Of a stretch of 34,383 nucleotides of DNA, positions 3,473-29,034 are shown one piece after another; the stretch's first letter is position 1, and each line of letters starts with the position of its first letter. Made by a program: the position numbers and the translations under genes. The notes under the pieces are model-generated. The model searched no databases, was not told the origin of the DNA, and saw nothing but the letters and a program-made list of their open reading frames with translations. The stretch is from a virus. The stretch is taken from the IMG/VR virus record IMGVR_UViG_3300042430_001133, positions 1-34,383 of that record; one strand, 5' to 3'.

Positions 3473-4212
3473 TAGTTACACACATGGGCAACGGAATAGT
3501 TAAGTTTGAAGACGCGCTTGCCATTGACAAAGAATATATGTCTGGGTTCTTTTCACGGCTCAATGGAGTTGATGTAAACTACGGCCAGATAATCGACGAA
3601 GAGCACGTCCGCACTGAAGGCCAATACAAACTAAATCGTGAAGAGGTGAGTAAAGCACCTGTTCGATTCACTGATCTCTACAAATTGCAAGCCGCAGAAG
3701 ACGTTGACTTTATCTCAAAGATGCGAGACGCGATCCACGACTGCGTTCGTGCATATGCGCGCATCTTTCCAGTAGTAGCCGAGTGTATCCGCTGGGGCAC
3801 GCATGGCTATGTAATTAGATACGAAAATGGCCAGTCAATTGGACCGCACTCAGACTGCAACATTGCGTACGAAGATGATGGAGTAACACCAATCAACACG
3901 TTTCCAATGCAAAACATATTGACATGTGGTTTGTTTCTAAATGATGACTTTAGTGGCGGAGATCTTCACTTTCGTCCGTGGGCCATTACGGTAAAGCCAA
4001 AACCTGGAACAATTGTTATCTACCCATCTTCATATCTTGGCTGTCATGAAGTGTCTCCGGTAACTGACGGACAGAGACATGCATATCTTATGTGGTACGG
4101 ACATGGTCCTATAGGTGGAATGAGTCATCGACCAGCAGACGATCTAAAAGATGTTGTCTCAAACCCTCAGCAGAAGTTTATACCTGTGGGACGGATTGAG
4201 TTGTATGAGTAG
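3469..4212 (+). CDS. 2-oxoglutarate/Fe(II)-dependent oxygenase (paralogue 3)
   Basis: 247-residue, compact version of the family. Seen: N-terminal MGNGIVKFEDAL; iron ligands H127-x-D129 (GPHSDCN) and H193 (LGCHEV); 2-oxoglutarate arginine R203; and the conserved LNDDFSGGDLHF strand between them. The start overlaps the previous stop by ATGA. The 3' end overlaps the convergent oxygenase gene on the other strand by 35 nt (4178-4212), so the two coding sequences read through each other's C-terminal codons and no bidirectional terminator can fit between them. The core is complete, so this is an intact enzyme rather than a decaying copy. The substrate is unknown. Confidence 0.85.
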   Translation: MIVTHMGNGIVKFEDALAIDKEYMSGFFSRLNGVDVNYGQIIDEEHVRTEGQYKLNREEVSKAPVRFTDLYKLQAAEDVDFISKMRDAIHDCVRAYARIFPVVAECIRWGTHGYVIRYENGQSIGPHSDCNIAYEDDGVTPINTFPMQNILTCGLFLNDDFSGGDLHFRPWAITVKPKPGTIVIYPSSYLGCHEVSPVTDGQRHAYLMWYGHGPIGGMSHRPADDLKDVVSNPQQKFIPVGRIELYE

Positions 4213-10899: not shown

Positions 10900-12147
10900 T
10901 TATTCAGCCGGCGTAAGCCAGGTCTTCTTCGCGTAGCTACGGCTAAACCCTTTGTCCGTATCAAGTAACCACTCTCGTTCACCGATAAGCTCTCCTTGAG
11001 GACCATTAGGTTGGCCGTCAAGCGACGCTTTTGCAGCATTGGCGATCCAGTTAGCAGCCTGCACAGCAACCGCCTTACCCCACGTCGCGCCAAGCATTGA
11101 GTAGTTACGCGCATCTAAGAACTCCCAGCTATCAGGCAGTCCTTGAATTCGTGCGGCCTCACGGTGAGTAATTCTTCGCATAAGAGTCGGGTGGATCACA
11201 TGATCTAATGCACCGCCGGTAAGAACGTGCGCCCATGAATCAGAAGGCCAACGGTGTGGCATTGAGAATCCCATGTAGTAGTCACGCGCTCGTGCCTTTT
11301 CTTCTTGAGCGAGCCATGACTGTGGGAATCGATCACCATTTTTCTCAACAGCAATCTTAAGTGCTTGACCGGCATCAATTCGAGCTTTCCAGCCGTCATT
11401 GCCGATGATGTCAAAGATCTCTTGAATACGCACAGTGTCTTTGTTGTTCTTGTTCATGTGACCGTTTACGACGCCGCTTTCATTACGCAACGGTTGCGCC
11501 CACTTTGAAGCTTCTTTATTGTAGCGCTGTGGTTCCCACATGATCTCAAGATCTGTTAGATCTCCGATTACGTCCATGATCGTTGGAATTTCTTTCGGCA
11601 TCAACGCCTGCGCACCAAACGGCATTCCCCGTTCTGCGGCAACCCAGAAGTATCGAGGACGATATGAGAATCCGCCAACCTGAAGGTTATTCATCTTTAC
11701 ATGGTACAGGTCATATTCTTTACCTGAAAGTTCTTCAACCATCGTGCGATACTTCAGCATTGTGTCGCGTCCCTGCGTGTATGCCTGCTGTACACATTCA
11801 AAGATAATAATTTTTGGTTTTACGCGTGCGGCATATTTCATGAAGGCGCGCGTGTGTTCGTGCGCTTTTGCGTCAGGTCCACGATTGTCCATACCTGACC
11901 AAACAGACCAGCCAGAGCACGGTGGACAACCTACCACCATGTCGCACTTTGCGTCTGGCCATTCTGTTGCGTCATCAGAGAAAAATGCAGACCAGTTCTC
12001 GCCAAGATGCTTGCGGTTTAGTTCGGCAACAGGATTGCCAAAGTTAAGTGTACCAACGCGGGCGGTCATATCTACTCCGGCATTTACAAATCCTAGACTT
12101 AGAAATCCAGCAAGACCGTTGCAATCAACAAAAGTGGGGTTTGACAT
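10900..12147 (-). CDS. DNA (cytosine-5-)-methyltransferase
   Basis: 415-residue C5-methyltransferase. Seen in order: motif I FVDCNGLAGFLSLGF (6-20, SAM loop); motif IV GCPPCSGWS with catalytic C77; motif VI IIFECVQ, an ECV in place of the usual ENV; motif VIII SYRPRYFWVAA; motif IX RRITHREAARIQGLPDSW; and motif X GKAVAVQAANWIA near residue 375. All core motifs are in standard order, so the enzyme is probably active. The target-recognition region (about 190-300) is not recognisable to me, so sequence specificity is unknown. No restriction endonuclease is adjacent, so it is an orphan enzyme, probably used to evade host restriction or as part of the cytosine modification chemistry suggested elsewhere in the window. 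It has its own candidate promoter and a GGAG ribosome site. Confidence 0.9.
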   Translation of the reverse strand: MSNPTFVDCNGLAGFLSLGFVNAGVDMTARVGTLNFGNPVAELNRKHLGENWSAFFSDDATEWPDAKCDMVVGCPPCSGWSVWSGMDNRGPDAKAHEHTRAFMKYAARVKPKIIIFECVQQAYTQGRDTMLKYRTMVEELSGKEYDLYHVKMNNLQVGGFSYRPRYFWVAAERGMPFGAQALMPKEIPTIMDVIGDLTDLEIMWEPQRYNKEASKWAQPLRNESGVVNGHMNKNNKDTVRIQEIFDIIGNDGWKARIDAGQALKIAVEKNGDRFPQSWLAQEEKARARDYYMGFSMPHRWPSDSWAHVLTGGALDHVIHPTLMRRITHREAARIQGLPDSWEFLDARNYSMLGATWGKAVAVQAANWIANAAKASLDGQPNGPQGELIGEREWLLDTDKGFSRSYAKKTWLTPAE

Positions 12148-12904: not shown

Positions 12905-13366
12905 TTACTTGTGGGAACACTGCGCCTCCGGACATGTTGCTGTATCAAAGTCATCAAGTGCACGCGCGCATGACTGGCACTTCATACCTTCGGCCTTGAC
13001 TACGTAGCCTTTAAGTTGACGTTGACGATTTACTTCCATCTTGTTTACGTAGTATGCGTCAAGTTGCTCGTCTGTTCCGCCTACGGCGCAGATGATGTTC
13101 GCCACAAAGTGCAAGACATCGACGCACTCTTTGACAACGGCCTCACGGTTTACATATGGGTCATCGTGTTGCCAGGGCTTCCACGAGATCTCCTTACGGA
13201 TCTCAGCAAGCTCATCATCGATTGCAAGCATGTTCCAGCGTAGATACTCAATGATGTTATTGAGTGACTCTGGCGATTGACCTTCAAACTTGCTATAGTC
13301 AATCTTGTACGCTTCTGTTTGTAGTTTCTTGGTGTTACCAAGCCACTCGTTGAATAGTGTTCCCAT
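12905..13366 (-). CDS. All-alpha NTP pyrophosphatase, dimeric dUTPase/dCTPase-like, with Cys-rich tail
   Basis: 153 residues. Seen: the metal-binding helix pair of the MazG/dimeric-dUTPase superfamily, DDELAEIRKE (E52, E55), and KECVDVLHFVANI (E80, D83), separated by WKPW at 62-65. The VDVLHF string is the hallmark of dimeric dUTPases. T4 dCTPase/dUTPase (gp56) is a known member of this group, so the substrate could be dUTP, dCTP or both. The C-terminus adds C-x2-C...C-x4-C (C130, C133, C145, C150), a possible zinc site not typical of the family. It starts with a 1-nt TAATG overlap after a glycosyltransferase gene. Likely job: removing dUTP, or unmodified dCTP, from the pool. Confidence 0.75.
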   Translation of the reverse strand: MGTLFNEWLGNTKKLQTEAYKIDYSKFEGQSPESLNNIIEYLRWNMLAIDDELAEIRKEISWKPWQHDDPYVNREAVVKECVDVLHFVANIICAVGGTDEQLDAYYVNKMEVNRQRQLKGYVVKAEGMKCQSCARALDDFDTATCPEAQCSHK

Positions 13367-14379
13367 TATTTTCCTATAAGTCTTTCCAGTTGAACTGTTA
13401 GTTCTTCTCGTGTTGGTATGCTTTTGACGTATTGCTGCTTTTGAGTTACTGATAATTCATATCGATCGATCTCTGACATCTCTTCAATTCCACTTGCAAG
13501 ATGATCCCAAGCGTTTCCGATCTTCTTACTCTCACGCCAATCAGTTGCGATCGGAGTGCCGGCATTCAGTGCATGAACATATACCTGAGACCACCACGTC
13601 ATCTTGTCGCCGTGAGGCCCGATGATCGCACCCATACTTGAATTGAGCGCATCGAACAGATCACTACTTGTTCTGGCTTTTGTCTCGCGGATTGACATTG
13701 CCGGAGTTGATAGTCCATCAAGTGCATTCTTTGTCCACCGCGTCTTGTCGTTATCAACGATCCAACGCTTTACACGCGACGAGTTGAAGTTTGCGTTTTC
13801 AGTGACATTAAATGAATCAAGGTTGATCCCAATCATCGATGAATAAGCGTTCTCCGGTACACCAGAAAACGTACTTGCATCGCCGCCCCAAGGTAAACGC
13901 GGATATAGCGTCGCGGCCCACGGATCATTGCTAAGAAGCATGACAGCGTTCACGATGTGTTTGCGTATGTCTGCGTTTCCAGCAACCTGAAGATATCCCT
14001 TGCGCTTTGAGTAGAAGTCTTTGAACAACGTCTGACTGTTCTTTTCAATCGCCCTAAAGTTTGCAAATATCTTCCACGGCTCAGGTGCATCGATAAATGT
14101 CATGAGGCTATCTCGTCCCTCAAGTGTCTTGATCGCTGCAAGTGCACCGTATGCGGAGTTTGCTGTTACACTTAACGGAGGTGCGATTCCAACAAGAACC
14201 TTCTGATACTGCTTAAGATCGCGCGCTGACCAACTAAGTGATGGCTCGGAGAATGTGACAGTATAGCCCATCTTCTCTAACACCTGCGACAATGCACCAG
14301 CAAACGTCAGTGATCGATTTGCGATCGATGACGAATACTGCTGCGCGGTCGTTCCGGTGATAAGTACTTGTTTACTCAC
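13366..14379 (-). CDS. Putative GT-B-like glycosyltransferase
   Basis: 337 residues, start GTG at 14379 with a 4-nt GTGA overlap to the glycosyltransferase upstream. Seen: a Rossmann-like beginning (VLITGTTAQQYSS, then FAGALSQVLEKMGYTVTF), a second-half segment MGAIIGPHGDKMTWWSQVY followed by ALNAGTPIATDW, the pattern of a GT-B donor-binding domain, and a helical C-terminal end. No EX7E motif is clear, so the assignment relies on fold-like order and on pairing with the better supported gene next to it. Possible acceptors are hydroxymethylated DNA bases (given the replication-module context) or a virion component. Confidence 0.45.
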   Translation of the reverse strand: MSKQVLITGTTAQQYSSSIANRSLTFAGALSQVLEKMGYTVTFSEPSLSWSARDLKQYQKVLVGIAPPLSVTANSAYGALAAIKTLEGRDSLMTFIDAPEPWKIFANFRAIEKNSQTLFKDFYSKRKGYLQVAGNADIRKHIVNAVMLLSNDPWAATLYPRLPWGGDASTFSGVPENAYSSMIGINLDSFNVTENANFNSSRVKRWIVDNDKTRWTKNALDGLSTPAMSIRETKARTSSDLFDALNSSMGAIIGPHGDKMTWWSQVYVHALNAGTPIATDWRESKKIGNAWDHLASGIEEMSEIDRYELSVTQKQQYVKSIPTREELTVQLERLIGK

Positions 14380-15629
14380 GAAAAAGCACTGTCAATCATC
14401 GCCTGTGCTGTCTTTGCTGGAGAATTCATCTCACGCAATAGGGCACGGTTGTATCTTGCAATCTCAAGACGCTCTGCGTCTGGAATTGCAAGTGATTCTT
14501 TGACAGACTCTGCGATGCGCTTTGCAAGCTCAATGCCTTCTGGAAAGACAAGCTTCGCGTGTGTCGGCGATCGATCATAGTAATCAATGATGTTCATCTT
14601 GAACTCAGGGTCTGATAGGTGCTTAGGCGTAACACACATCGCGCCTGCCTCAAGAGCTTCCATCGTCGTAAACTCGCAGTGACCACTTGAGAAGTTGCCA
14701 GCCGTTAGGTTTAGGTGAACCCTAAAGCGCGAGTTTACAACAACAGGATCGTGATAGTTACCGAGGTAGCTGATCTCTGGCCCGTTTGGAACTTTAAGAT
14801 CCCAGTGATACGGCGTGATGACATTTCCGTCTTCGTCAAATCCAGGTTTACCCATGTTCTCTGCCTTAAGCACAGCATGACGTTTTCCTGTCGCGCCAAA
14901 GTGTTCCTTGAGTTGCTCATACACGAGGTACGTAGGCGATGGTCCAAGGCCGATTGAGCAGGCTCCCCAGATCTCCATTCGTACGTCTTCAGGTAAGAAC
15001 GCGCCAGCAACAGCGGCGAGTGGCTGTCCTTTGTTGTAAACAAATCGACCAGTGACGCCGACAACGTTGCCTGTTGGGATCTCGTCTTCAATGTTGTAGC
15101 GAGATAGGTACGGCAAACGCGCACGCACCCACTTCAATGATGCAAAGTAATCGTTTGCATCGCCTTCTGGGTTGTCGCGTGTTGTGACAAACGCAGCCGC
15201 GCGTGACGGCGATTCAAGCAGTGCGCCAACAAAAGGAATTTCTTTTTGGATGTAAGGTGTGCCATGAAGCGCGGTTGTCCAGCGTGTCTTGGTCTTACGT
15301 AACGCGTCAACATAATCAGGCAGAACGTTTTCGCCCTCTTTCAACGCCGTTTTGTCATGTGCAAGTACGCGGATCTCAGGCAATACAACAAGATCATATG
15401 TGTCAAGTACAGCGACAAGATCGCGCGTCTTCACAACAACGTCGGGTGAGTCGCCCCACCAACGTCCGCCAGGTTGCGATGTTCCCCACGACTTGCGTGT
15501 CTTACCGCTCTTTGTGAAAGACACCACCTGGCAGTCATGTCCTAATTGTTCAAATCCTTGGCGAAGGTTAAATGCAAACCTTGTCGGTCCTTTGACCCCT
15601 GGCTCTGGCTCAAGAATTGCTACGCGCAT
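14376..15629 (-). CDS. GT-B fold glycosyltransferase (family 4-like)
   Basis: 417 residues from the ATG at 15629, which has GGGAGA about 7 nt upstream. An extension to 15683 would include a low-information leader and the promoter. Seen: MRVAILEPEPGVKGPTRFA start with donor-side loop; VVGVTGRFVYNKGQPLA (start of the C-terminal Rossmann domain); MEIWGACSIG; and EFTTMEALEAGAMCVTPK containing the EX7E motif that holds the sugar nucleotide in GT4-like enzymes. It is first in a two-glycosyltransferase operon, preceded by a strong hairpin terminator and a candidate promoter, and lies between the ssDNA-binding gene and the dUTPase/dCTPase-type gene. This makes it a candidate for DNA-base glycosylation. 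Other acceptors remain possible. Confidence 0.75.
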   Translation of the reverse strand: MRVAILEPEPGVKGPTRFAFNLRQGFEQLGHDCQVVSFTKSGKTRKSWGTSQPGGRWWGDSPDVVVKTRDLVAVLDTYDLVVLPEIRVLAHDKTALKEGENVLPDYVDALRKTKTRWTTALHGTPYIQKEIPFVGALLESPSRAAAFVTTRDNPEGDANDYFASLKWVRARLPYLSRYNIEDEIPTGNVVGVTGRFVYNKGQPLAAVAGAFLPEDVRMEIWGACSIGLGPSPTYLVYEQLKEHFGATGKRHAVLKAENMGKPGFDEDGNVITPYHWDLKVPNGPEISYLGNYHDPVVVNSRFRVHLNLTAGNFSSGHCEFTTMEALEAGAMCVTPKHLSDPEFKMNIIDYYDRSPTHAKLVFPEGIELAKRIAESVKESLAIPDAERLEIARYNRALLREMNSPAKTAQAMIDSAFS

Positions 15630-15665
15630 AAAGTTCTCTCCCTTGATTATGAATGAATGAAATGT

Positions 15666-15671
15666 ATCATA
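15666..15671 (-). promoter_or_regulatory. Promoter -10 element (TATGAT) for the glycosyltransferase pair
   Basis: TATGAT on the - strand, 37 nt upstream of the ATG at 15629 and just after the terminator hairpin, so it likely restarts transcription after termination. Confidence 0.35.
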
Positions 15672-15682
15672 GACAAAACACA

Positions 15683-15716
15683 AACGGCGTGACTATCTTT
15701 CGACAGCCACGCCGTT
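15683..15716 (-). terminator. Intrinsic terminator after the ssDNA-binding gene
   Basis: Perfect 9-bp inverted repeat: AACGGCGTG at 15683-15691 pairs with CACGCCGTT at 15708-15716, with a 16-nt loop that can add two pairs after one mismatch. On the - strand it is followed by a T-rich tail (TTGTGTTTTG). It lies 22 nt after the stop of 15738-16283. The most convincing terminator in the window. Confidence 0.7.
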
Positions 15717-15737: not shown

Positions 15738-16283
15738 TCAGAACGGAGAAGCGGGTGGCTGTTCTGCTGTTGGAGCAGGCGCTGCAGCTGGTGCTGGAGC
15801 AGGTGCTGGAGCAGGAGCAGGTGCAGGTGCAGGCGCAGGAGCTGCAGCAACAGGTGCTGGTGCTGCTCCAGTATTTGCTACTGAGTAGTACGCCTTGATC
15901 TCGTTCTTCTTCTGTCCCTGCCACGTGCGTGAACCTACTTGTGCACGGAAGGTCTTTTCCTTAAGTGCTGCTTCGATCTGCGCGTTGCTTGGGCTGGTTG
16001 CGAAGAACTCACGGCCAAGACCAAGTGCGTTCATCTTGCGGAAGAAGATTCCGAGTGCTGTTGGGTTGTCTGTTGAAACAACAAGGTTGTCCCAGATCAA
16101 ACGCTTTGCGTGCGCGCCGGTCTGAACTTGAGCCTTCACCGAGAACATGGTCTTACCAGACTGTGAGACCTTTGCGGTTGCTTCAACAACCTTGAGATCG
16201 TAGTCACCGTCCGGAAGTGGATCGTATCCGCCTGTTGATTCTCCAGCGTCTTTAATAAGATCGCCCCAATTGAGTGTACTCAT
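15738..16283 (-). CDS. Phage single-stranded DNA-binding protein (DUF669-like) with Ala-Pro linker
   Basis: 181 residues. The N-terminal 135 residues have the look of a phage ssDNA-binding protein (DUF669-like OB fold): YDPLPDGDYDLKVVEA near the start, FSVKAQVQTGAHAKRLIWDNLVVS in the middle, and FRAQVGSRTWQGQKKNEIKAYY as the last strands. Residues 140-172 are an Ala-Pro repeat linker, followed by TAEQPPASPF, whose terminal Pro-x-Phe recalls the protein-binding tip of bacterial SSB but is less acidic. The gene follows the Sak4-like ATPase by 9 nt, the usual pairing of phage recombination ATPase and ssDNA-binding protein. Expected role: coating ssDNA in replication and recombination. Confidence 0.75.
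   Translation of the reverse strand: MSTLNWGDLIKDAGESTGGYDPLPDGDYDLKVVEATAKVSQSGKTMFSVKAQVQTGAHAKRLIWDNLVVSTDNPTALGIFFRKMNALGLGREFFATSPSNAQIEAALKEKTFRAQVGSRTWQGQKKNEIKAYYSVANTGAAPAPVAAAPAPAPAPAPAPAPAPAPAAAPAPTAEQPPASPF
15768..15866 (-). repeat. Low-complexity Ala-Pro coding repeat
   Basis: About 99 nt of GC-rich imperfect 6-nt repeats (Gly/Ala/Pro-type codons) encoding alternating Ala-Pro in the ssDNA-binding protein. Likely to vary in length between relatives by slippage. Confidence 0.85.
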
Positions 16284-19925: not shown

Positions 19926-20390
19926 TTATTGGAGCAGTCTTCGGGGTGTCCAGCCCTTTTTAGCAAGATAAAGCAGCCCGTGGCGGATTGCATCAAGGGC
20001 GTGACCTTCCCCGCCTTTATGCCAGTAGTCAAGCTTCTTGAGCGCCTCGTTTGGGAACATTCTCTTGGCGTCTACAGGACTTTGAAGCACAATCGACTCT
20101 GGACTTGCGCAGGTGGATTCACGCGCAAGATGCTTGAGAACGCCGATCTGCTCGAGTGAGTACGGTGCCTGCGAGTTCTTTGCGGTCTGCGCCGTGATAG
20201 TAAATCGCTCACAGGCGATCTCGAGATCTACCCGAGCATCAAGTGCCATGTCAAGTCCACGACGAACCGCGGTTGCAAACTCGTCTGCTTGGTATTCACC
20301 CGACCAAAGAAGCTCTGGCTCGCCATCTGAAAATGAAAATAGACAGATACCGCTGGCTTTACCAGGATCTACTGCAAGGATCAATCTCAT
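19926..20390 (-). CDS. RuvC-like Holliday junction resolvase
   Basis: 154 residues with the RNase H-like fold of RuvC. Seen: MRLILAVDPGKASG with catalytic D8; CERF with E61 at the end of strand 4; and GEGHALDAIRHGLLYL with H130, D133 and H137 as the C-terminal acidic/His cluster. The length is close to bacterial RuvC. It starts with a 4-nt ATGA overlap after the polymerase, so it belongs to the replication operon. Expected role: resolving branched DNA before packaging. The following gap (19834-19925) holds the SNF2 promoter. Confidence 0.8.
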   Translation of the reverse strand: MRLILAVDPGKASGICLFSFSDGEPELLWSGEYQADEFATAVRRGLDMALDARVDLEIACERFTITAQTAKNSQAPYSLEQIGVLKHLARESTCASPESIVLQSPVDAKRMFPNEALKKLDYWHKGGEGHALDAIRHGLLYLAKKGWTPRRLLQ

Positions 20391-22213
20391 AGGTACTTAT
20401 CTCCCCAACACTCAAGCGGACCGTCAACGTCTGCTGTTAATGGAACTGCCCAACCTTCACGCGTTGTCATGCACTCGCGAACAAGTTTCTTGATCTCTTC
20501 GGCGTCCTTACGCGGAGCATTGAGCACAATTTCGTCGTGCACCGGAACGATAAGAAGTTCCGTGAGATCTGCTTGATCGAGTTTTACAAGGTTGCTCTTG
20601 AATACCTCGGCCGCGCCGCCTTGAATCAGATAGTTGACAAGTGTATACACACGGCCATCGTCACATGGAAGACGTCGTCCGGTCCAGGTGTATACATATC
20701 CCTGTCCCTCGGACTTAAATCTACGCATGCCAACGTCTTCAATCTGACGTTGGAAGTGACTCATTCCTGGGAATCGCGAGTCAAACGCGTCAGACACTGA
20801 CTTCATCTGTCCCTCAAGCACGCCGGCGGTGATCGCCTGCTTTGCAACACCTGCGCCGTATAGGCGACCGTAGACCATGCTCTTGATGAGGTTACGACGT
20901 TTATCAGACTTCTTCATCGTTGGATCTTCGTACACCTCGCGACCAATCTCCGTAAACGGATCTGATCCTGTAGCGTCAGCAAGATGAAACAGGTTTACAA
21001 GGTTTTGATCTTGTGAGAGACTTGCAAACATGCGGAACTCAACCTGATCGAGGTCCGAGGTGATGATTACATGGTCCTCGTCTTTTGGAATAAACGCGCG
21101 ACGAACGACGTCATCGCCTTTTGGCAACGTTTGAAGTGCTGGGCTTGTAATCGACATGCGACTAGTACGAGCACCGAGAGTACGGACAGACGGATGAACC
21201 ACGCCGTCAATAGACTCAGTAAGGAAGTTCGAGAAGTATGTGTTGGCAAGTTTGTCGGCCTTTCGTTGTTTAAGTACTGTGTCAGCGAGGTTCTTTACCT
21301 CGTCATTTCCGTCACGGAGAAGAATCTTTAGCTGATCCTTTGTGCAGGACTTCTGTCCTGTCGGCGTATACTCCGTGATCTCTGCGCCGAGACTTTCAAA
21401 TAAACGTACAAGTTGAACGTTACTTGTGATTGACGTTCCGCTATAGGTTTGCTTTGCCCACGCCTTAACCTTCTCGGTATACGCAGTGAGTTCGTCAAAC
21501 TTTTGCTTAGAGTAGTCGAGGTTTACACGTGCTCCATTCAACTCCATGCGCGTCACAATTTTGCGCGTCGCCATCTCGAGTTCATACGCTTTTTGGTACG
21601 GACCATCAGGACCGCACTGCTTGTAGAACAACTCCCAGAGACGGGTTGTTAGCACACAGTCAAGCGCACCGTATGACCAATATGGTTGAAAGTTTGTTGG
21701 CACAGTTCCCCATGTCCAACCGTTCTTTGCAAGCTCAACGTCGAGTGTTTCCTGTAACGCAACCGCACGACTGTCAACATGCAATGCTGCAAGACGTTTT
21801 AGCGCGCCTGATCCTAGTGGATCGATGACGTGCGCCATAATCATTGTGTCATGCGCGCGGTGCCAAGGCATCTCCCAACGTGACTTGACAGCGAACCAAC
21901 GAGCCTCAAACGCGATGTTGTGGCAGATGATCGGGCCGTCAAACTTATCCATCGCTTCATAGAATACGCCGCCCCACTCGTTCCACGGAATTGACCAACC
22001 CTGTTCACCGTCGCCAACCTGCACAAGACGAAGTTGACCGTGCCACGGAGAGAACGCATGTTCACGCGGATTACCTGGAAGTTCTCCTGTTTCAGTGTCA
22101 ATTGAGATCGCGTCATACGGACGACGTTGACCTAGCCAATGAATGAAATCGTTGGCCTTCTGTGCTGAGTCAACGAGATGTAACTGAACATCTGAAAGAT
22201 TATTGGTTGTCAT
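20387..22213 (-). CDS. polA-like: DNA polymerase I-like family A polymerase with 3'-5' exonuclease
   Basis: 608 residues. Exonuclease domain: D39-x-E41 (SIDTETG), HNIAFEARW (98-106) and WSYGALDCVLT with Y181 and D185, so proofreading is intact. Polymerase domain: motif A SDLDQVEFRMFA with D387 and E392; motif B RRNLIKSMVYGRLYG with R440, K444, Y448 and Y452; and motif C VPVHDEIV with H559, D560 and E561. There is no 5'-3' nuclease domain, as usual for phage enzymes. Y448 sits at the E. coli F762 position; Tyr there (as in T7) is known to lower discrimination against dideoxynucleotides. It overlaps the dCMP deaminase and the RuvC-like gene by 4 nt each. Confidence 0.95.
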   Translation of the reverse strand: MTTNNLSDVQLHLVDSAQKANDFIHWLGQRRPYDAISIDTETGELPGNPREHAFSPWHGQLRLVQVGDGEQGWSIPWNEWGGVFYEAMDKFDGPIICHNIAFEARWFAVKSRWEMPWHRAHDTMIMAHVIDPLGSGALKRLAALHVDSRAVALQETLDVELAKNGWTWGTVPTNFQPYWSYGALDCVLTTRLWELFYKQCGPDGPYQKAYELEMATRKIVTRMELNGARVNLDYSKQKFDELTAYTEKVKAWAKQTYSGTSITSNVQLVRLFESLGAEITEYTPTGQKSCTKDQLKILLRDGNDEVKNLADTVLKQRKADKLANTYFSNFLTESIDGVVHPSVRTLGARTSRMSITSPALQTLPKGDDVVRRAFIPKDEDHVIITSDLDQVEFRMFASLSQDQNLVNLFHLADATGSDPFTEIGREVYEDPTMKKSDKRRNLIKSMVYGRLYGAGVAKQAITAGVLEGQMKSVSDAFDSRFPGMSHFQRQIEDVGMRRFKSEGQGYVYTWTGRRLPCDDGRVYTLVNYLIQGGAAEVFKSNLVKLDQADLTELLIVPVHDEIVLNAPRKDAEEIKKLVRECMTTREGWAVPLTADVDGPLECWGDKYL

Positions 22214-22710
22214 AGATATGTCGTTCCTTGAGGCGTGTCTCTGTCGATTGTTGTTACGAGTATTCCGCAGTTCCTGAGATATGTAACTGATGTCTCAGGA
22301 TTGCGATGCGCGTCCACTCCGCCTATTCTACATACAACTCGCTTGATTCCTGAGTTTGATATGAGCTTTGCACATTGCATACACGGAGGGCTGCTAATGT
22401 AGATAGTTCCACCCTCGCTCAACGAGCGATCTACATACAAAAGTGCGTTTGCCTCGGCGTGGATCGCAGGGCAGGCATCATACATATTGTCAAGTGGTGC
22501 AACGCCTTTTGCGCGATCGCACCAGTTGATGCACTCACCAGACTCTGGCCAACTTGCGGCAGGTCCATTGTAGCCTGTTGCGACGATGTGCTGATCGTGC
22601 GAAACAATTGCAGCACCCATCTGTGCACGGGTACAGCGTGATCGTTTTGCTACGGCGTCAACGACCGCAAGCCAGGTATCGTCCCAAGACGGACGATTGT
22701 CACTTGCCAT
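22210..22710 (-). CDS. dCMP deaminase
   Basis: 166 residues from the ATG at 22710. A longer frame to 22824 would overlap a small gene reading in another frame. Seen: the zinc/proton-shuttle motif H84-A-E86 in AIHAEANALLY, and SSPPCMQC with C110 and C113, plus further cysteines (C60, C64, C80) that may bind a second zinc as in T4-type enzymes. It converts dCMP to dUMP, the thymidylate precursor. It sits between the thymidylate-synthase homologue and the polymerase, overlapping PolA by 4 nt. If the phage makes modified cytosine, this enzyme competes for the same dCMP pool, a combination also known in T4. Confidence 0.9.
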   Translation of the reverse strand: MASDNRPSWDDTWLAVVDAVAKRSRCTRAQMGAAIVSHDQHIVATGYNGPAASWPESGECINWCDRAKGVAPLDNMYDACPAIHAEANALLYVDRSLSEGGTIYISSPPCMQCAKLISNSGIKRVVCRIGGVDAHRNPETSVTYLRNCGILVTTIDRDTPQGTTYL

Positions 22711-22876
22711 TCTGTTCCCTGTGGTTATTTGCCTCGTTGATTGTTCCGGCCATGATCCGAGCAAGTAGCTCAATCGCGTCGCGTCGTGAGAACCCAGCTG
22801 CCTTGAGCGTGATAAACAACTCATGCATGCTGATGGCCGCGTCTTTCATCGGTGAGTTGTACTCGTCTTTTGCCAC
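22700..22876 (-). CDS. Small helical protein (58 residues)
   Basis: A 58-residue frame filling the gap between the thymidylate-synthase homologue and dCMP deaminase. It starts at the GTG at 22876, 1 nt after the preceding TAA stop, and its TGA overlaps the deaminase start by 11 nt. Contents: MKDAAISMHELFITLKAAGF and RRDAIELLARIMAGT, two amphipathic helices joined by a GF(S)RRDA turn like a helix-turn-helix. No known function. The exact fit into the operon and the sensible helical composition argue it is translated. Confidence 0.65.
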   Translation of the reverse strand: MAKDEYNSPMKDAAISMHELFITLKAAGFSRRDAIELLARIMAGTINEANNHREQNGK

Positions 22877-22877
22877 T

Positions 22878-23738
22878 TTATTGTTCTTTCTTCTTGTTGT
22901 TCTCGATCGCCTTTGCCATAACGTCTGTGTACCAACGTTCGGCAGGAGTTAGACGATCGCGAAGTTCTGTCTGATACACAGCCTTGAGTGCGATCAGCGC
23001 AGACGATTCAACCTCGCGCCACGTACGACCTGTGATCTCTGGGTTCGCCTCGACCTTGTCTGTATACTTGAGTCCTTCCGCGGCTTCGTAGTGATCTGCG
23101 TAGATATGCAATGATCCAACGTGATGTGAATATGTACCCGGTTCGATCTGCAAAATAGAACAGATCGCAAGCTGCGCACGTGAGAACTGAAAGAAATCGT
23201 AAGCTGCGCCAAGCCACACATCGTTTGATCGCATGTACACACTCATGTTGAGCTTGTTCTTGCGGATACGGAACTGGTGTAGCACTGTGCACGGATAGTC
23301 ACGCTTGTTTTCTTGTGTATCGAGCTGTGGACTCCACATTGTGATTACGCCCTGACGGGTATCTGGGTCGCGCTTGAGACGCTCGATGATGATCTCATAT
23401 TGACCTTTTGTCCGCGTACCGTATGAGCCGTGGAACATTCCGTCATCTTCGATGTAGTTCTTAAACTGTGGGCCGATGTCAATTACGAGTTCAGGAATAC
23501 TTACGCCTGAGAGCAACTGCAGCGCCTCAACAGCACCGATACCTGAGACGGGGTTACGGTTCACATTGAGTGGAAGTGCCGCACGAATATCGTGGATATG
23601 AATTGTCGCGTCTTCAATCTCACGCGTCTTCATTCCACGAGGTGCAACCTCTTCGCCATGCTTAAGAACATGCTGGACAAGATCAACATAGCCGTTTACG
23701 CCGTCTTGAATCTCAATTGTCTTTATGGAAGTATCCAC
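22878..23738 (-). CDS. Thymidylate synthase-family enzyme, probable dCMP (hydroxy)methylase
   Basis: 286 residues of the thymidylate synthase fold. Seen: FHGSYGTR (folate/active-site loop); DPDTRQGVITMW (phosphate-binding arginine strand); DYPCTVLHQF with catalytic C150; YMRSNDVWLGAAYD (170 RSND, D181); and GSLHIYADHYEAA with H211 and Y213. In dUMP-specific synthases the residue after the LGxPF block is Asn (E. coli N177); here it is D181. Asn-to-Asp at this site is known to switch substrate to dCMP and is the natural residue in T4 dCMP hydroxymethylase and MilA. The PCH triplet is PCT here. Product could be hydroxymethyl- or methyl-dCMP. Start GTG at 23738 with AAGGAG. It overlaps the kinase gene by 16 nt. 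Confidence 0.8.
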   Translation of the reverse strand: MDTSIKTIEIQDGVNGYVDLVQHVLKHGEEVAPRGMKTREIEDATIHIHDIRAALPLNVNRNPVSGIGAVEALQLLSGVSIPELVIDIGPQFKNYIEDDGMFHGSYGTRTKGQYEIIIERLKRDPDTRQGVITMWSPQLDTQENKRDYPCTVLHQFRIRKNKLNMSVYMRSNDVWLGAAYDFFQFSRAQLAICSILQIEPGTYSHHVGSLHIYADHYEAAEGLKYTDKVEANPEITGRTWREVESSALIALKAVYQTELRDRLTPAERWYTDVMAKAIENNKKKEQ

Positions 23739-24721
23739 GGGTCTCCTTCTGTAGTTTCTTTATTTGCAAATCTTTCAAGTGCAAGTCCGTACTCTACCCG
23801 GTCATGGTGATGAAACCGGCGAACATACTGCGGGTGAGGTGCAACGACAATGTCTGCAGAACTTACTCCAGAGCGGAGTAGACGCTTCTCGGCCATTCGA
23901 CCAAGCGCGACAATCTGCGGCTGCCCCAGTGCCATCCACAGTTCAATGAATCTCATGTTCTTGACGTCATCAGAGTTTACAACTCCTACCTCACGCCAGA
24001 GTGTCTCGGGTAGCGCCGATAATAGGTAGTCGCCAGAGTTTCCGTTATACGGCATGAACGGAAGTATTGTGCCGTCTTTGTTGATGCGATCATCGCCAAC
24101 GAGGAGAGCCTTTGGCTTTACAGCTCCGATGTACTCTGGAAACTCGCGGAGAAACTCAGCGGCATATACCCGCTTTGTCGCGATCTCGATGAGCGCGGCT
24201 GCAAGATTCGGTATCTCGTCCATGCTGTCCGGCTGCGGCGTAATTGTTCCGGCAAGACCGTGGGTAGATTTAGCAGCTGTCGCGTATAGCCCAATGATTG
24301 TTTCCAGATCTTGTTCAGTTACATAGTCATCGCCACGCCCTCTCAGACGCATCTGGATGACATCTAAGGGCTGGTAAAGCCAGAATTGGGATACTCCACG
24401 GGACGCCAAAACCATCTCAACCCAACGCCACCCAGGGATACCAAGCAGTCCGTAGTTATCGTTTATACAGGTGTGAGGACGCTTGAGCGGTGCATATGTC
24501 GCCTCGCCCCAGTGCCAGCGATCCGCCACCCAGTATTCATTTAAGAAGTCAGTATTTTCAATGCTGGCGCCGTACTCGTTTAGCACCCAAAGGCGAGATT
24601 CTTCTTGGGGACGACCTTGATGAATTGTGCGCACAGGTCCGCGTTCTTCGAGCTGTCGCGCAATCTCTGCGCATAGAGAACTTTTTCCAGAGGCGTCTGT
24701 GCCTTCTACTGCGATAAACAT
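23723..24721 (-). CDS. dNMP (thymidylate-like) kinase fused to uracil-DNA-glycosylase-like domain
   Basis: 332 residues, two domains. Residues 1-195: MFIAVEGTDASGKSS P-loop (7-14), DRW at 67-69 and an RLRGRGDD lid, as in thymidylate kinase-like P-loop enzymes that phosphorylate dNMPs. Residues 203-332: ALLVGDDRINKDG...PFMPYNGNSGDYLL, VALGRMAEKRLL and a VVAPHPQ motif (H286). This order (VG, PF, G..G..LL, LG..A, HP) matches the uracil-DNA-glycosylase superfamily fold, with the first catalytic motif altered. It precedes the thymidylate-synthase homologue, so the kinase may take that enzyme's nucleotide to the diphosphate. The purpose of the second domain is unknown: base excision or nucleotide sensing. 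It is led by an extended -10 promoter. Confidence 0.75.
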   Translation of the reverse strand: MFIAVEGTDASGKSSLCAEIARQLEERGPVRTIHQGRPQEESRLWVLNEYGASIENTDFLNEYWVADRWHWGEATYAPLKRPHTCINDNYGLLGIPGWRWVEMVLASRGVSQFWLYQPLDVIQMRLRGRGDDYVTEQDLETIIGLYATAAKSTHGLAGTITPQPDSMDEIPNLAAALIEIATKRVYAAEFLREFPEYIGAVKPKALLVGDDRINKDGTILPFMPYNGNSGDYLLSALPETLWREVGVVNSDDVKNMRFIELWMALGQPQIVALGRMAEKRLLRSGVSSADIVVAPHPQYVRRFHHHDRVEYGLALERFANKETTEGDPWILP

Positions 24722-25476: not shown

Positions 25477-26826
25477 TTATATTCCGTTCGACGTTGACTC
25501 GATGTAGTTATACCAGCGAACAGCCGCGTATCGTGTGCCAGTGACAACGGGGTCTACGCGGTGCATGTTCTGAAATCCTGAACTAAACAAGACTATTTTT
25601 CCAGCCTCTCGCTTGATTGGTAGGTTGAAGTGTTGAAAATGCAGATCTCCACCGGTGTAGTCATCGTTGAGAAGCGCAGATACTGATAAGACGCGCTGGA
25701 ACTCAAAGCAATCATCAACGTGGTTATGAAATGATCCGCCACGCTCGTACCTGGTGATCTGCCAGTTATATGACTTAAGTCGAGGCACGTTGTACATTGC
25801 CCTAAAGTCTTCGACCATCGGCGCGATACCGGCCTCGAGACTTTCATACAGTCTTCGGATTGGATCGTGCGGATGGCAGCTTAGCTGCGTCTCATTGATG
25901 AACTTTACGTAGCAAGTTCGTGCATTATAGTTTACAGCAGCCTCACGCTTGTCATCGAGTACCTGTGCAGGCTCCCACTGACGAAAACATGAGTTTTGCG
26001 CAAGACCTCGAAGAAGATTGGCAGCTTCCTTTGTTGTCCTGTACGCGACAATTCCAGGTGCAAGAACCTCGCGGTCAACAATGGGTATATCAACAAGCTC
26101 AACCGGATCATCAACATAGTCACCAAGGATCTGGTCATAGAGAGACAAGACACCTGAGTACTCGTGACAACTGCATGTTGGCTGTTTTACTGGAGGATCT
26201 GGTAGAGGTATGTACCTGTTGCGATTGAAAAATCTAATGTCGCCGTCACTTCCATACCTTCCAATACTCTTTGGGCTTTTCTGAATCCAATGATCTGGAC
26301 GGGTAAAGTGCAAGAAAAGAACAGTTGTAAACCGCTCTTTACTCAATGTCGGGAACGGTGGTCGCGCGTGAATATGTTGTTGACCAGCAAATATAATAGC
26401 CTCGTTGTCGTGCTGCTCATATTCATTGCCTTCTACAATTAAGTTCCAGTTGGCTGTGTTCTCAATCGTGATGTCAATTGTTGTCTGTGTACCGTTCTGG
26501 TCAGTATGTGGCCATAGGTGCGGGACGCACCCGTCAACTGACTGATATCTTGTTGCAAAGAAGTAGGCCTTCTTTAGCGAGTCATCATTGAACAACTCCC
26601 TGGCGCGTTTGATCATGTATTCTTCAATATCCTGCGAAAATGACACAGGCGATTCCCAGCGGCCGATCATTGTGTGATACTGAAGTGGACCGCCCGGGCC
26701 CATCTTTAGGTTGTTTACAGTTTCTTTTACGCGAGCAAACATCTCGTCTGAAAAGAAAGACTTGATTACAACAGGCTCACTTATTAGTGGATCTGGAAGA
26801 TCAAACTGAATTTGTCCGTTGCGCAT
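25477..26826 (-). CDS. Tandem double-domain 2-oxoglutarate/Fe(II) oxygenase
   Basis: 449 residues from the ATG at 26826, which follows the upstream stop; the longer frame begins with TTG at 26859 and overlaps. Two oxygenase domains lie in one chain. N-terminal: H107-x-D109 (WPHTDQN), distal His H151 or H153 (in QQHIHAR) and R165. C-terminal: LAPGIVAYRTT (the family entry motif) at about 256, then H369-x-D371 (NHVDD), LNDDYTGGDLHF, H422 (NMHRV) and R432. Both carry a full iron triad and a candidate 2-oxoglutarate Arg. A Cys-containing linker (PTCSCHE) joins them. The C-terminal domain is closest to the five-gene oxygenase family at the left end. It could hydroxylate two sites, or one half may bind substrate. 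Confidence 0.85.
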   Translation of the reverse strand: MRNGQIQFDLPDPLISEPVVIKSFFSDEMFARVKETVNNLKMGPGGPLQYHTMIGRWESPVSFSQDIEEYMIKRARELFNDDSLKKAYFFATRYQSVDGCVPHLWPHTDQNGTQTTIDITIENTANWNLIVEGNEYEQHDNEAIIFAGQQHIHARPPFPTLSKERFTTVLFLHFTRPDHWIQKSPKSIGRYGSDGDIRFFNRNRYIPLPDPPVKQPTCSCHEYSGVLSLYDQILGDYVDDPVELVDIPIVDREVLAPGIVAYRTTKEAANLLRGLAQNSCFRQWEPAQVLDDKREAAVNYNARTCYVKFINETQLSCHPHDPIRRLYESLEAGIAPMVEDFRAMYNVPRLKSYNWQITRYERGGSFHNHVDDCFEFQRVLSVSALLNDDYTGGDLHFQHFNLPIKREAGKIVLFSSGFQNMHRVDPVVTGTRYAAVRWYNYIESTSNGI

Positions 26827-26827
26827 G

Positions 26828-27067
26828 TTACCACTTGCCAAGTGGACATTTTGCTCCAAGAAGTTTGGTCTTCATGTTCATAAAACATCCGCATTCTCGG
26901 CATTGTTTTGTGAGTGTAATTAGACGGTCACATTGGACGCAGATATCCATACGAGAGTTAGAAAGGTCTTCATTTGCGCGTGGAACATGCGGATTAAAGA
27001 AATCAAGCGGAGTTACATTGTCTCCGTATTTCTCCTTAAATTGCTCCCACCGTGACTTTGGCTTCAT
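26828..27067 (-). CDS. Phage zinc-ribbon protein of the DUF6171 type
   Basis: 79 residues. Seen: CVQCDRL and CRECGCFMNMKTKLLGAKCPLGKW at the C-terminus, the conserved signature of DUF6171-type phage proteins (two CxxC pairs plus a terminal CPLGKW). The N-terminal half (WEQFKEKYGDNVTPLDFFNPH) is a short helix with a Pro-rich turn that is often conserved. A single zinc is the likely ligand. The molecular role is unknown. It shares one nucleotide with the gene before it and lies directly before the double oxygenase, 1 nt away, which suggests the two are co-expressed. Confidence 0.75.
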   Translation of the reverse strand: MKPKSRWEQFKEKYGDNVTPLDFFNPHVPRANEDLSNSRMDICVQCDRLITLTKQCRECGCFMNMKTKLLGAKCPLGKW

Positions 27068-27515: not shown

Positions 27516-27537
27516 AAGTAAAAAAGCGAACTCACTT
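27516..27537 (-). terminator. Candidate terminator at the end of the tail gene cluster
   Basis: An AAGT...ACTT outer stem encloses a GAG-TTCG-CTT mini-hairpin with a UUCG tetraloop and a six-T run on the - strand. It overlaps the tail gene's stop codon. The stem is short and asymmetric, so it would be only a modest terminator separating tail and early genes. Confidence 0.35.
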
Positions 27538-29034
27538 AAATGTTGGCGGTGCTGTTACCGGCGGTGTCACTGGAGGAACTACCGGAGGAACTACCGGAGG
27601 AACTACCGGAGGAACTACAGGAGGAACTACAGGAGCGACAACAGGAGCAGGTGATGTGCACGTAGCGCCAGACGCCAGCGGACTTACACACTCGCCGACA
27701 TATGTACAGCTGTTGAATCCGATGTCACCAGGGTTGCAATACTTGTTGCTTGGGGCGACCGGTGCTGTCACAGGCGCTGTTACTGGCGCAGTTACTGGCG
27801 CAGTTACTGGCGCAGTTACCGGAGGATAGGTCATTGTTGAGCAGCCTGCGCCAGTTCCGTATCCGCAGTCGCCGTTGTTGTAGCAGCCTTCAAGGTTGGA
27901 GATGACGTTGGCAGGTGAGCAGATGTTAAACGGTTCTGGGGTAACCGGAGCTGTAACAGGCGCTGTTACCGGTGCTGTTACCGGTGCTGTCACAGGTGAA
28001 GCTGGTGTACACGAGGCACCGCTCGCGCCTACTTTACATTCACCAACATCATAGCATTCGTAAAATCCAATATCTCCTGGGTTGCATAAGTTATACGTAA
28101 CAACTACAGGTGACACCGGAGGTGTGACAGGTGACACTGGAGAAGATCCGCAGAGAGTGAGACAGTACTGCGTTGTTGTTCCCGCTTGATCTGTAATGTT
28201 GCAGTACAGCGTTGTGCCGTCATACGAGAGTGCGTATGTATTTGTATCGTTCTGCGCATCAAACCTGATACCGCCAGGAACAAGTTCTGTTTGATTTCCA
28301 GCCGCGTTATATGCAATCAGTCCGTCATATGTCAAGACAGAGACGTTTCCAGGATAGACACCGCCTGTAGGACCAACAATCAACGCGCCAGCAACCGCTG
28401 ATGTGTACGCGGCATCTCCAAGGTTGCCGATATACATATAACCAAGAAAACTTCCACCTGTGAACAAAGTGTCACCGACAATTGTCCAGCCGGCGATTGA
28501 ACTTCCTGTACCGCCAAAACCTTGACCAATCTGGATATCGATACCGGTGAGAGTTCCTACAGTGATGTTTCCAGCGTCAAGATTGGACACAGTGATGATG
28601 CTTGCATCAATACTTCCAGCGGTAATCTTGTTGGCGCTGACGCTCGCAATTGCGTGATCACCAAGTTCATTTGGCTGCCAGCCGGTGCCGGTCCAACGAT
28701 AAATTCTATTGTCATCGTCGGTGTCAAACCAAAGATCTCCAACCGCCGTGGCTGTTGGCGACTCTGGTTGATGAAACGCCTTGTTTTTTCCATTGGCTGT
28801 AGTTACAGCATTTGAGATGTCTGTTGATACGTCGTTCCCAAGTTTTGGACCAGTGACAGCGCCGTCTGCTAGTTCAATGGGCGTTACTGCGCCTTTTTCA
28901 ATTGCCCGTGAGGGTACAGACCGTGTCTGAATCTGCGTAGGTACAGATCTTTTTTGAAGAAGTCGAAGACGACTGTCCATCGATGTGACAAGTTTTCCGA
29001 CTGTCCGTAAACTTCTACGACGTATGCTAGCCAC
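27532..29034 (-). CDS. Tail/receptor-type protein with three Cys modules and PVT-repeat linkers
   Basis: About 500 residues, GTG start at 29034; the longer frame begins with TTG at 29043 and has no better site. Three parts. Residues 1-95 have VTxxKLGxDVS-type repeats typical of tail proteins. Residues 96-295 are a Gly/Thr-rich beta region (GDLWFDTDDDNRIYRW, SANKITAGSIDASII, ITVGTLTGIDIQIG), like tail-fibre shafts. Residues 297-500 hold three modules of four cysteines (C317/327/333/342, C372/384/390/398, C433/443/449/459), each C-x9-11-C-x5-C-x7-9-C, joined by PVTA and PVVPP repeats. The last part looks like small disulphide domains on stiff linkers. It comes after the Gp37-like and distal-tail genes, so it is probably on the tail tip. 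It may bind the host envelope. Confidence 0.75.
   Translation of the reverse strand: MASIRRRSLRTVGKLVTSMDSRLRLLQKRSVPTQIQTRSVPSRAIEKGAVTPIELADGAVTGPKLGNDVSTDISNAVTTANGKNKAFHQPESPTATAVGDLWFDTDDDNRIYRWTGTGWQPNELGDHAIASVSANKITAGSIDASIITVSNLDAGNITVGTLTGIDIQIGQGFGGTGSSIAGWTIVGDTLFTGGSFLGYMYIGNLGDAAYTSAVAGALIVGPTGGVYPGNVSVLTYDGLIAYNAAGNQTELVPGGIRFDAQNDTNTYALSYDGTTLYCNITDQAGTTTQYCLTLCGSSPVSPVTPPVSPVVVTYNLCNPGDIGFYECYDVGECKVGASGASCTPASPVTAPVTAPVTAPVTAPVTPEPFNICSPANVISNLEGCYNNGDCGYGTGAGCSTMTYPPVTAPVTAPVTAPVTAPVTAPVAPSNKYCNPGDIGFNSCTYVGECVSPLASGATCTSPAPVVAPVVPPVVPPVVPPVVPPVVPPVTPPVTAPPTFK
27544..27999 (-). repeat. PVTA/PVVPP coding repeats in the tail protein
   Basis: Three tracts of 12-nt tandem repeats: 27937-27999 (PVTA), 27754-27825 (PVTA) and 27544-27648 (PVVPP/PVTP). 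They lie between the cysteine modules. The DNA repeat unit is imperfect, so expansion or contraction between relatives is expected. Confidence 0.85.

Follow-up and report, generated by a model that had tools for sequence, protein, structure and literature searches.

A probable dCMP 5-hydroxymethylase behind the thymidylate synthase label in phages of the DSL-LC01 family

Which reaction is catalysed by a phage protein that belongs to the thymidylate synthase (TS) superfamily and carries an Asp in place of the Asn found at position 177 of Escherichia coli TS? This question is raised by a gene of the IMG/VR virus record IMGVR_UViG_3300042430_001133, of which positions 1 to 34,383 were analysed. 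This stretch of 34,383 nucleotides, a 34-kb fragment, is called the window hereafter, and its features are collected in Table 1. Our comparisons make it quite likely that the TS homologue is a folate-dependent dCMP 5-hydroxymethylase working like gp42 of phage T4, and glycosylated 5-hydroxymethylcytosine (hmC) is likely to be present in the phage genome.

Table 1. Features of the window and codons of key residues in the TS homologue (codon positions are given on the plus axis).
Feature	Position	Strand	Remarks
C5-cytosine DNA methyltransferase	10900..12147	-	Intact motifs; kept in DSL-LC01, IMG/VR relatives and Phendrix
NTP pyrophosphatase, candidate dCTPase	12905..13366	-	PF08761, PHROG 18650, PHROG 173
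X337, GT-B-type glycosyltransferase fold, candidate hmC-DNA glycosyltransferase	13366..14379	-	AlphaFold2 model, VIA-align; adjoins 12905-13366
GT435, second variable slot gene, possibly a glycosyltransferase	14376..15683	-	Sub-threshold PF13524, E 0.056
Family A DNA polymerase (PolA)	20387..22213	-	77/80 related loci; may incorporate the modified nucleotide
dCMP deaminase	22210..22824	-	PF00383; PHROG 174; 80/80 related loci
Predicted dCMP 5-hydroxymethylase (TS superfamily), 286 aa	22878..23738	-	GTG start
Thymidylate-kinase-like nucleotide kinase, candidate hm-dCMP kinase	23723..24721	-	PHROG 761; 77/80 related loci; putative substrate
Codon E71	23526-23528
Codon Y106	23421-23423
Codon D147	23298-23300
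Codon C150	23289-23291
Codon T151	23286-23288
Codon R170	23229-23231
Codon S171	23226-23228
Codon D173	23220-23222
Codon G177	23208-23210
Codon D181	23196-23198

The ORF encodes a genuine protein of the TS superfamily. It matches Pfam PF00303 with 86.3 bits (cut-off 24.3) and the TS families of PHROG, the best being PHROG 5131 at E 1.7e-44. The best structure matches of its AlphaFold2 model (pLDDT 93.4) are MilA, a CMP 5-hydroxymethylase, and proteins of the TS superfamily. MilA is the closest of these (Z 28.7), followed by 9iqc, a flavin-dependent monooxygenase with dCMP and FAD (Z 23.7), by 9iqu, the dCMP hydroxylase AfhB of phage HY126 (Z 22.8), and by the listed TSs (Z 20.8-22.1). Eight NCBIfam TS equivalog models also match, all under their cut-offs (the best with 81.7 bits versus 174.55), so that a 'thymidylate synthase' label would stem from annotation of the Pfam, PHROG or BLAST type. 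The initial annotation had expected most pipelines to give the gene this label; this holds for Pfam, for PHROG and for the records of DSL-LC01 and Gordonia phages, in which the label stands for the relatives, but not for the eight NCBIfam models.

In sequence alignments, C150 falls on C146 of E. coli ThyA and on C148 of T4 gp42, and D181, in the motif GAAYD, falls on ThyA N177 and gp42 D179. The Asp of MilA shares the column of D181 among the PDB matches listed (60 of 127). The alignment with T4 gp42, MilA and TS that had been proposed as a check was thus run, and position 177 is Asp and not Asn, as had been read from GAAYD; the claim that both the T4 dCMP hydroxymethylase and MilA carry an Asp there is likewise borne out. 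The catalytic Cys is retained and the residue after it is T151, so that PCH has become PCT exactly as first described. R128, S171, D173 and G177 are all kept in the window protein, and no C-terminal tail of the TS type was found by alignment comparison.

Relatives were gathered from IMG/VR with six search patterns, the best 80 of 115 being used. Together with the window locus they give 81 proteins, of which 53 are distinct, the window's own copy among them, with identities of 62-100%. D147, C150, T151, R170, S171, D173, G177 and D181 are invariant in these 53 ORFs. One of the six patterns contained Asp181 itself, and a second set was therefore gathered through a different gene, encoding a Sak4-like protein (80 of at least 599 matches). 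It contains 46 TS ORFs in 45 of the 80 loci, of which 28 are distinct and 10 are absent from the first set. Position 181 is Asp in 26 of the 27 aligned sequences, the 28th ORF being a fragment without the residue, and the single Leu belongs to an ORF (in L161) running out of frame. Position 147 is Asp in all 26 that have the residue (two of the 28 do not). These counts refer to loci or to distinct ORFs, as given; near-identical contigs occur within each set and the two sets overlap. Asp181 is not a chance substitution. Single-protein queries of the collection recovered four loci with AXL3 and one with Phendrix, while a peptide-pattern scan of bacterial genomes produced 11 pattern matches, none of them confirmed as a relative of the TS homologue.

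The chemistry was read with a ruler of three positions in reference proteins: the residue three before the catalytic Cys (Cys-3), the one after it (Cys+1) and position 177. The window protein reads D/T/D, as do T4 gp42 and MilA. E. coli TS shows L/H/N, the dUMP hydroxymethylases of Bacillus phage SP8 and of its relative Goe9 (the latter by annotation) show D/N/N, and AXL1, DLP4 and Mallos, which are kin of Xp12, show N/P/D. In the paper on the T4 ternary complex, the signature of water-activating hydroxymethylation is an Asp (or Glu) at Cys-3, where TS has Leu (PMC6400193), and MetaGPA links Asp at 177, together with position 147 (T151 in the window), to DNA with modified cytosine (PMC8670742). 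The initial annotation had proposed a dCMP methylase or hydroxymethylase; this finds support, and the D/T/D comparison would narrow the choice to the hydroxymethylase.

Two other hydroxymethylases were rejected on the same ruler. Enzymes of the SP8/SPO1 type, SP8 DNA containing 100% 5hmdU (PMC7653180), share with the window protein the Asp at Cys-3, the equivalent of E. coli D169 and an RSND motif, but have Asn both at 177 and at Cys+1, which means uracil and not cytosine; the Asp of the window protein at 177 speaks against a dUMP hydroxymethylase. MilA combines the closest solved fold with D/T/D, but it serves antibiotic synthesis and has Lys133 and Ala176 where the window protein has R128 and S171. 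Arg and Ser mark deoxyribose substrates according to the MilA paper (PMC5175136), and a CMP hydroxymethylase was set aside on these two residues.

T4 gp42 resembles the window protein in the catalytic Cys followed by Thr, in the Asp residues at 177 and Cys-3, in an MRSND motif and in having no TS tail. It differs in its overall sequence (23% identity) and two residues before the Tyr (Tyr-2), where the window protein has Gly (G104, present in 53/53 relatives) and T4 has Ser, so that the window protein lacks the Ser-x-Tyr signature of T4 (S94/Y96). Since Ala occupies this position in the enzymes of SP8 and Goe9, the Ser of T4 is not universal among hydroxymethylases. G104 weakens the likeness to the exact active site of T4 and leaves the other hydroxymethylase tests untouched.

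Asp at position 177 is also compatible with a dCMP methylase, in which the methylene would be reduced to methyl to yield 5-methyl-dCMP, as presumed for phages of the Xp12 type. The change from Asn to Asp was initially said to let TS take dCMP; this is stated in the literature, where the exchange at 177 alone makes a TS produce 5-methyl-dCMP (PMC8670742), and PDB entry 1njc is an N229D enzyme with dCMP. The cytosines of Xp12 are 5-methylcytosine (5mC), AXL1 and DLP4 are its close kin, and many restriction enzymes fail to cut the DNA of AXL1 (PMC9206674); Mallos is placed in the AXL1/DLP4 subfamily by the taxonomy of its record. The methylase-type residues are those of Xp12 kin, a type defined by kinship, and AXL1, DLP4 and Mallos would by the same kinship contain 5mC, as the restriction resistance of AXL1 also suggests for that phage. 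Their enzymes are phage TS homologues with Asp at 177, like that of the window, but they combine a TS-like tail and a neighbouring DHFR gene with Asn at Cys-3 and Pro at Cys+1, whereas the window protein has Asp, Thr and no tail.

Folate metabolism separates the two reactions further. A methylase turns its cofactor into dihydrofolate and needs dihydrofolate reductase (DHFR), whereas a hydroxymethylase releases tetrahydrofolate and does not. Eight family records were searched: the window, six IMG/VR records of 90-132 kb and the complete 129-kb genome of DSL-LC01, those other than DSL-LC01 being possibly fragments and the G001 protein being identical to that of the window. DHFR (PF00186) was found in none of the eight, the complete DSL-LC01 included. 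It is present in Mallos, Icarian and T4, which has a true TS besides, and AXL1 carries a gene annotated as DHFR that scores 24.1 bits, just below the cut-off of 25. Each of the eight records contains exactly one TS homologue, and ThyX occurs in one of them. A methylase of the Xp12 type was rejected on the Asp at Cys-3, the Thr at Cys+1, the lack of a TS tail and the lack of DHFR in the family records, and we regard a dCMP methylase in general as unlikely.

An ordinary TS, converting dUMP to dTMP despite an unusual substitution and fed by the adjoining dCMP deaminase, would agree with the database label, with the joint presence of TS homologue and deaminase in 80/80 loci and with the scarcity of ThyX (1/8 family records). 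Against this reading, T4 also retains a dCMP deaminase while making hmC. Asn177 is replaced in all relatives read in frame, the NCBIfam TS cut-offs are unmet, the TS tail is missing and DHFR was not found in the eight records. A canonical TS was rejected on the Asp for Asn177 and on the NCBIfam scores, and we consider this reading highly improbable.

A further alternative is a 5-hydroxy-dCMP synthase, which would place OH and not CH2OH onto C5, as in Mosigvirus, before glycosylation. Such synthases belong to the TS superfamily, and a sugar cluster likewise takes part in their pathway (PMC13390438), the sugar genes being linked in Mosigvirus; 9iqc and 9iqu are the next-best folds after MilA. 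The reference protein, from the Mosigvirus PhAPEC2, is annotated as similar to RB69ORF048c and owes its assignment as a 5-hydroxy-dCMP synthase to kinship with RB69. It shares with the window protein the Asp at 177 and the Thr at Cys+1, but has Glu at Cys-3 and no longer carries the residues that correspond to D169 and G173 of E. coli TS. In the window protein these are D173 and G177, both kept and invariant in 53/53 relatives, which favours a folate-dependent hydroxymethylase, with PhAPEC2 as the one reference protein for the type; we infer that loss of the two residues is type-defining. According to its title, PDB entry 1bjg is a mutant of the D169N type that fails to open the ring of the folate cofactor. 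The synthase was rejected on the retention of this Asp and Gly, and appears decidedly unlikely to us. Phage Thanatos has a dCTP pyrophosphatase, a dCMP deaminase and a TS-type hydroxymethyltransferase, and mass spectrometry found a deoxypentose on its cytosine (PMC12838424), a precedent for the hydroxymethylase reading. Sugars of the Thanatos type may sit on 5-hydroxycytosine rather than on 5-hydroxymethylcytosine, which counts against hydroxymethylation as the best explanation.

In a tree of 31 rows with several long branches, the window family groups with Gordonia-phage proteins (97/91). The TS, Xp12-like and Icarian enzymes form a group of their own (99/99), apart from the window family, which again argues against a dCMP methylase. 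D/T/D proteins of the AXL3/HTVC200P type join the TS-plus-methylase side (84/89), and the D/T/D pattern needs three changes on the tree; a single origin of the pattern is thus not demonstrated. T4 gp42 forms a very long branch, and because of the long branches we made no use of the points at which T4 gp42 and PhAPEC2 join. The sequences do not show common descent with T4 gp42, and the proposed reading does not require it.

The genes around the TS homologue belong to nucleotide metabolism and replication (Table 1). Further neighbours in the 80 related loci are a RuvC-like gene (74) and a helicase gene (70), both named after the DSL-LC01 annotation. The kinase shows a very weak UDG-like match in its C-terminal part and weak PDB matches. 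The candidate dCTPase lies approximately 9.5 kb from the TS homologue. T4 gp56 dCTPase matches the same three families (PF08761, PHROG 173 and PHROG 18650), and the protein is 43% identical to Phendrix 108, which is MazG-like (E 3e-31). Enzymes of PF08761 may act on dUTP, which counts against the best explanation.

Next to this gene lies X337, for which we found no Pfam or PHROG match and no match to PF09198 up to E 1, T4 beta-glucosyltransferase (BGT) itself scoring 325 bits against PF09198. The AlphaFold2 model of X337 (pLDDT 93.4) has T4 BGT entries as its top three VIA-align matches (Z 17.8, 17.7 and 16.9), 1qkj giving an rmsd of 3.7 with 293 aligned. The selenosugar enzyme SenB is nearly tied with BGT (Z 16.8) and T4 alpha-glucosyltransferase reaches Z 15.0. 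When Foldseek was run against the PDB, BGT was absent from the best 50 rows and other glycosyltransferases ranked first; among viral predicted structures, it ranked first an uncharacterised protein encoded by the Gordonia phage Phendrix (E 9.5e-20). Homology of X337 to T4 BGT by sequence was rejected, hhalign giving a non-significant probability of 1.2% and PF09198 giving no match. D97 of X337 is invariant in 24/24 aligned relatives and paralogues. Its context, FIDAPEP, is similar to the FTDIRLP around D100 of T4 BGT by sequence inspection; we take Asp100 to be the catalytic base of BGT, and PDB entry 1nzd names a D100A mutant of this enzyme. From the model, it is a fair call that X337 is a glycosyltransferase, and we infer that it may use a BGT-like acceptor, hmC in DNA.

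A tblastn search at E 1e-3 found X337 in 14 of 50,697 phage-collection records, namely DSL-LC01 and 13 records of eight Gordonia phages, and all 14 also carry this TS homologue. The six phages checked, DSL-LC01, Phendrix, GodonK, Forza, Sixama and GMA2, all have D/T/D (6/6); Mareelih, BlueNGold and Boopy, which also carry X337, stand outside this count. In a profile search of 17 records, X337 was found in three (DSL-LC01, Phendrix and GMA2) and was not found in T4, SP8, Goe9, AXL3, the Xp12-like phages and others among the 17. X337 thus looks like an actinophage enzyme and not a general partner of such TS homologues.

The slot to which X337 belongs is bordered by the dCTPase-like gene and by the gene at 15738-16283, and was scored in 50 loci, many of them near-identical. 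An X337 orthologue (at least 30% identity) is present in 49 of the 50, and the remainder of the slot varies, the Pfam names of its genes being taken from one representative each. GT435 stands alone in 2/50 loci and together with an APH-like kinase and an NTP transferase in 14/50, 11 of which also have a HAD-type ORF. A paralogue of X337 of 400-446 aa is found in 28/50 (one of them truncated, and the locus without X337 being among these 28), a paralogue of 345 or 364 aa in 4/50, and one of 349 aa with a UDP-galactopyranose mutase in 2/50. In DSL-LC01, two genes of the X337 family flank a UDP-galactopyranose mutase. In Phendrix, the glycosyltransferase, MazG, methyltransferase and WhiB genes form one cluster approximately 24 kb from the TS gene, so that the two blocks co-occur there without adjacency. 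The initial annotation had seen modified cytosine in the phage genome as implied by the enzyme; the gene sharing PHROG families with gp56, the protein with a BGT-like fold and the sugar genes of the relatives give this expectation a sequence-based backing.

Even with the enzyme acting as proposed, protection of the genome need not be what the modified nucleotide or the sugars are for; the glycosyltransferases might, for instance, act on virion proteins. This is compatible with the enzymology of a dCMP hydroxymethylase and does not exclude it. The fold of X337 is also near SenB and other small-molecule glycosyltransferases, and the acceptors of these enzymes are putative, which leaves room for such a role. 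In 49/50 loci, nevertheless, X337 lies in the interval bounded by the gene at 15738-16283 and by the dCTPase-like gene of the replication block, T4 BGT heads its VIA-align matches, and each of its 14 tblastn matches comes from a genome that also carries the TS homologue. We hold a function unrelated to protection to be unlikely.

The C5-cytosine methyltransferase of the window is 67% identical to its counterpart in DSL-LC01 and 34% identical to that of Phendrix; motif IV (PPCS), the Glu of motif VI and an RxRxF-type motif VIII are present in 27/27 aligned sequences. A conserved methyltransferase does not fit a full replacement of cytosine by hmC, and counts against the best explanation. Such an enzyme would be unable to act on hydroxymethylated cytosine, which suggests that replacement is incomplete, or that the methyltransferase has a different DNA target or is active at a different time. 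The window also encodes six 2OG-Fe(II) oxygenases. Each matches only PF13640 at E 0.01, and a route of the TET/JBP type, in which methylation is followed by oxidation, finds no support in them.

A folate-dependent dCMP 5-hydroxymethylase thus draws its support from D/T/D, from MilA as the closest fold, from the lack of both a TS tail and DHFR, from the dCTPase-like partner and from the co-occurrence with X337. By transfer of the published T4 mechanism, C150 would attack C6 of dCMP, D181 would recognise and protonate the cytosine, and the one-carbon unit of methylene-tetrahydrofolate would pass to C5. D147 would then activate a water molecule, converting the exocyclic methylene to hydroxymethyl with release of tetrahydrofolate, which would make DHFR unnecessary. 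In T4, the variants D145N and D179N, at the positions of D147 and D181, are reported to lose hydroxymethylation and the use of dCMP, respectively. The dCTPase-like enzyme may supply dCMP and lower dCTP, the adjacent kinase may take hm-dCMP towards the triphosphate, and PolA would incorporate it. X337 and a second, phage-specific set of sugar genes may finally glycosylate hmC in DNA, as a defence against host nucleases. The window genome resembles T4 in its dCTPase-like and BGT-fold partners, but differs in its PolA-type polymerase, in the lack of a significant BGT sequence match for X337 and in the presence of a C5-methyltransferase.

The strategy of combining a dCMP hydroxymethylase with sugar decoration is already known; what is newer here is X337 together with the swappable sugar slot. 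Brevibacterium phage LuckyBarnes was described in 2019 with a predicted dCMP-hydroxymethylase and two glycosyltransferases (PMC6588365), which is alike by description, but it is a 50.8-kb singleton phage. For the first Nanopelagicales phages, DNA protection via glycosylation was suggested from glycosyltransferase genes (PMC10202952); hydroxymethyl and thymidyl terms are absent from the main text of that paper. DSL-LC01 is a phage of Dishui Lake predicted to infect Actinomycetia. Its description names a methyltransferase ORF as DNA-modifying (PMC10611076), and the word 'thymidylate' is absent from its main text. Among the matches listed in our literature search, no title or abstract named a dCMP hydroxymethylase from phages of freshwater or of Gordonia, though this does not prove that there is none.

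A broader proposal is more tentative, and we would sooner doubt than assert it as a whole. At least 115 IMG/VR contigs and their cousins in Gordonia phages may carry hmC that is primed for sugar addition by X337, a previously unrecognised protein with a BGT fold. The swappable adjacent slot, with a second glycosyltransferase, with a sugar kinase, HAD phosphatase and nucleotidyltransferase, or with a UDP-galactopyranose mutase, might then give each phage its own DNA sugar, galactofuranose in some, and the C5-methyltransferase may join the pathway.

The residue at Cys-3 together with position 177 sorts phage 'thymidylate synthases' into likely TSs, dUMP hydroxymethylases, dCMP hydroxymethylases and dCMP methylases, the methylase class being that of the Xp12 kin. 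In the DSL-LC01 family and in cultured Gordonia phages, the TS annotation hides a likely pathway of DNA modification. If this is true, these phages may resist many host nucleases, and enzymatic and sequencing assays may give anomalous results with their DNA.

The C5-cytosine methyltransferase gene is kept jointly with those for the predicted dCMP 5-hydroxymethylase and X337 (a candidate hmC-DNA glycosyltransferase), and the cultured Gordonia phage Phendrix also has a counterpart (34%). Were all cytosine replaced, such an enzyme would be puzzling. The C-terminus of the kinase beside the predicted hydroxymethylase gives a very weak uracil-DNA-glycosylase-like match (PF03167, E 0.13).

A UDP-galactopyranose mutase adjoining an X337-family protein hints at galactofuranose on DNA. 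Members of the window family show this pairing, as does the T4-like Erwinia phage FBB1.

Six PF13640 oxygenases lie on the single 34-kb fragment. In the related lake phage DSL-LC01, genes with a collagen-like annotation are present.

Features discussed, with positions in the window or in individual phage sequences (L-numbers)
Feature	Position	Remarks
2OG-Fe(II) oxygenases (n=6)	1686-2612, 2609-3472, 3469-4212, 4178-5287, 5217-6269, 25477-26859	PF13640
PVTAP-like repeat protein	27532-29043	near the oxygenases
C5-cytosine methyltransferase	10900-12147	motifs intact
AurF-like (p-aminobenzoate N-oxygenase) protein	18-1043	distant; E 2e-5, under Pfam cut-off
Kinase	23723-24721	in 77/80 related loci
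UDP-galactopyranose mutase beside X337-family protein	L131:12446-13540	
Same	L137:6215-7309	
Same	L082:28957-30054	
Same	L204:3937-5001	Erwinia phage FBB1
'Thymidylate synthase'	L092:3974-4792	Pelagibacter phage HTVC200P; D/T/D
'Thymidylate synthase' gp319	L086:3001-4047	Bacillus phage G; D/T/D
'Thymidylate synthase'	L090:3998-4807	AXL3; D/T/D
TS homologue	L094:1701-2633	Microbacterium phage Icarian

The three 'thymidylate synthases' with D/T/D, the pattern of the window enzyme, T4 gp42 and MilA around the catalytic Cys and at E. coli position 177, are predicted to be dCMP hydroxymethylases. The Icarian homologue carries Ile at Cys-3, Met at Cys+1 and Asp at 177; its C-terminal tail is TS-like and a DHFR gene adjoins it. 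We predict that this protein is a dCMP methylase, and Icarian DNA may thus possibly contain 5-methylcytosine.
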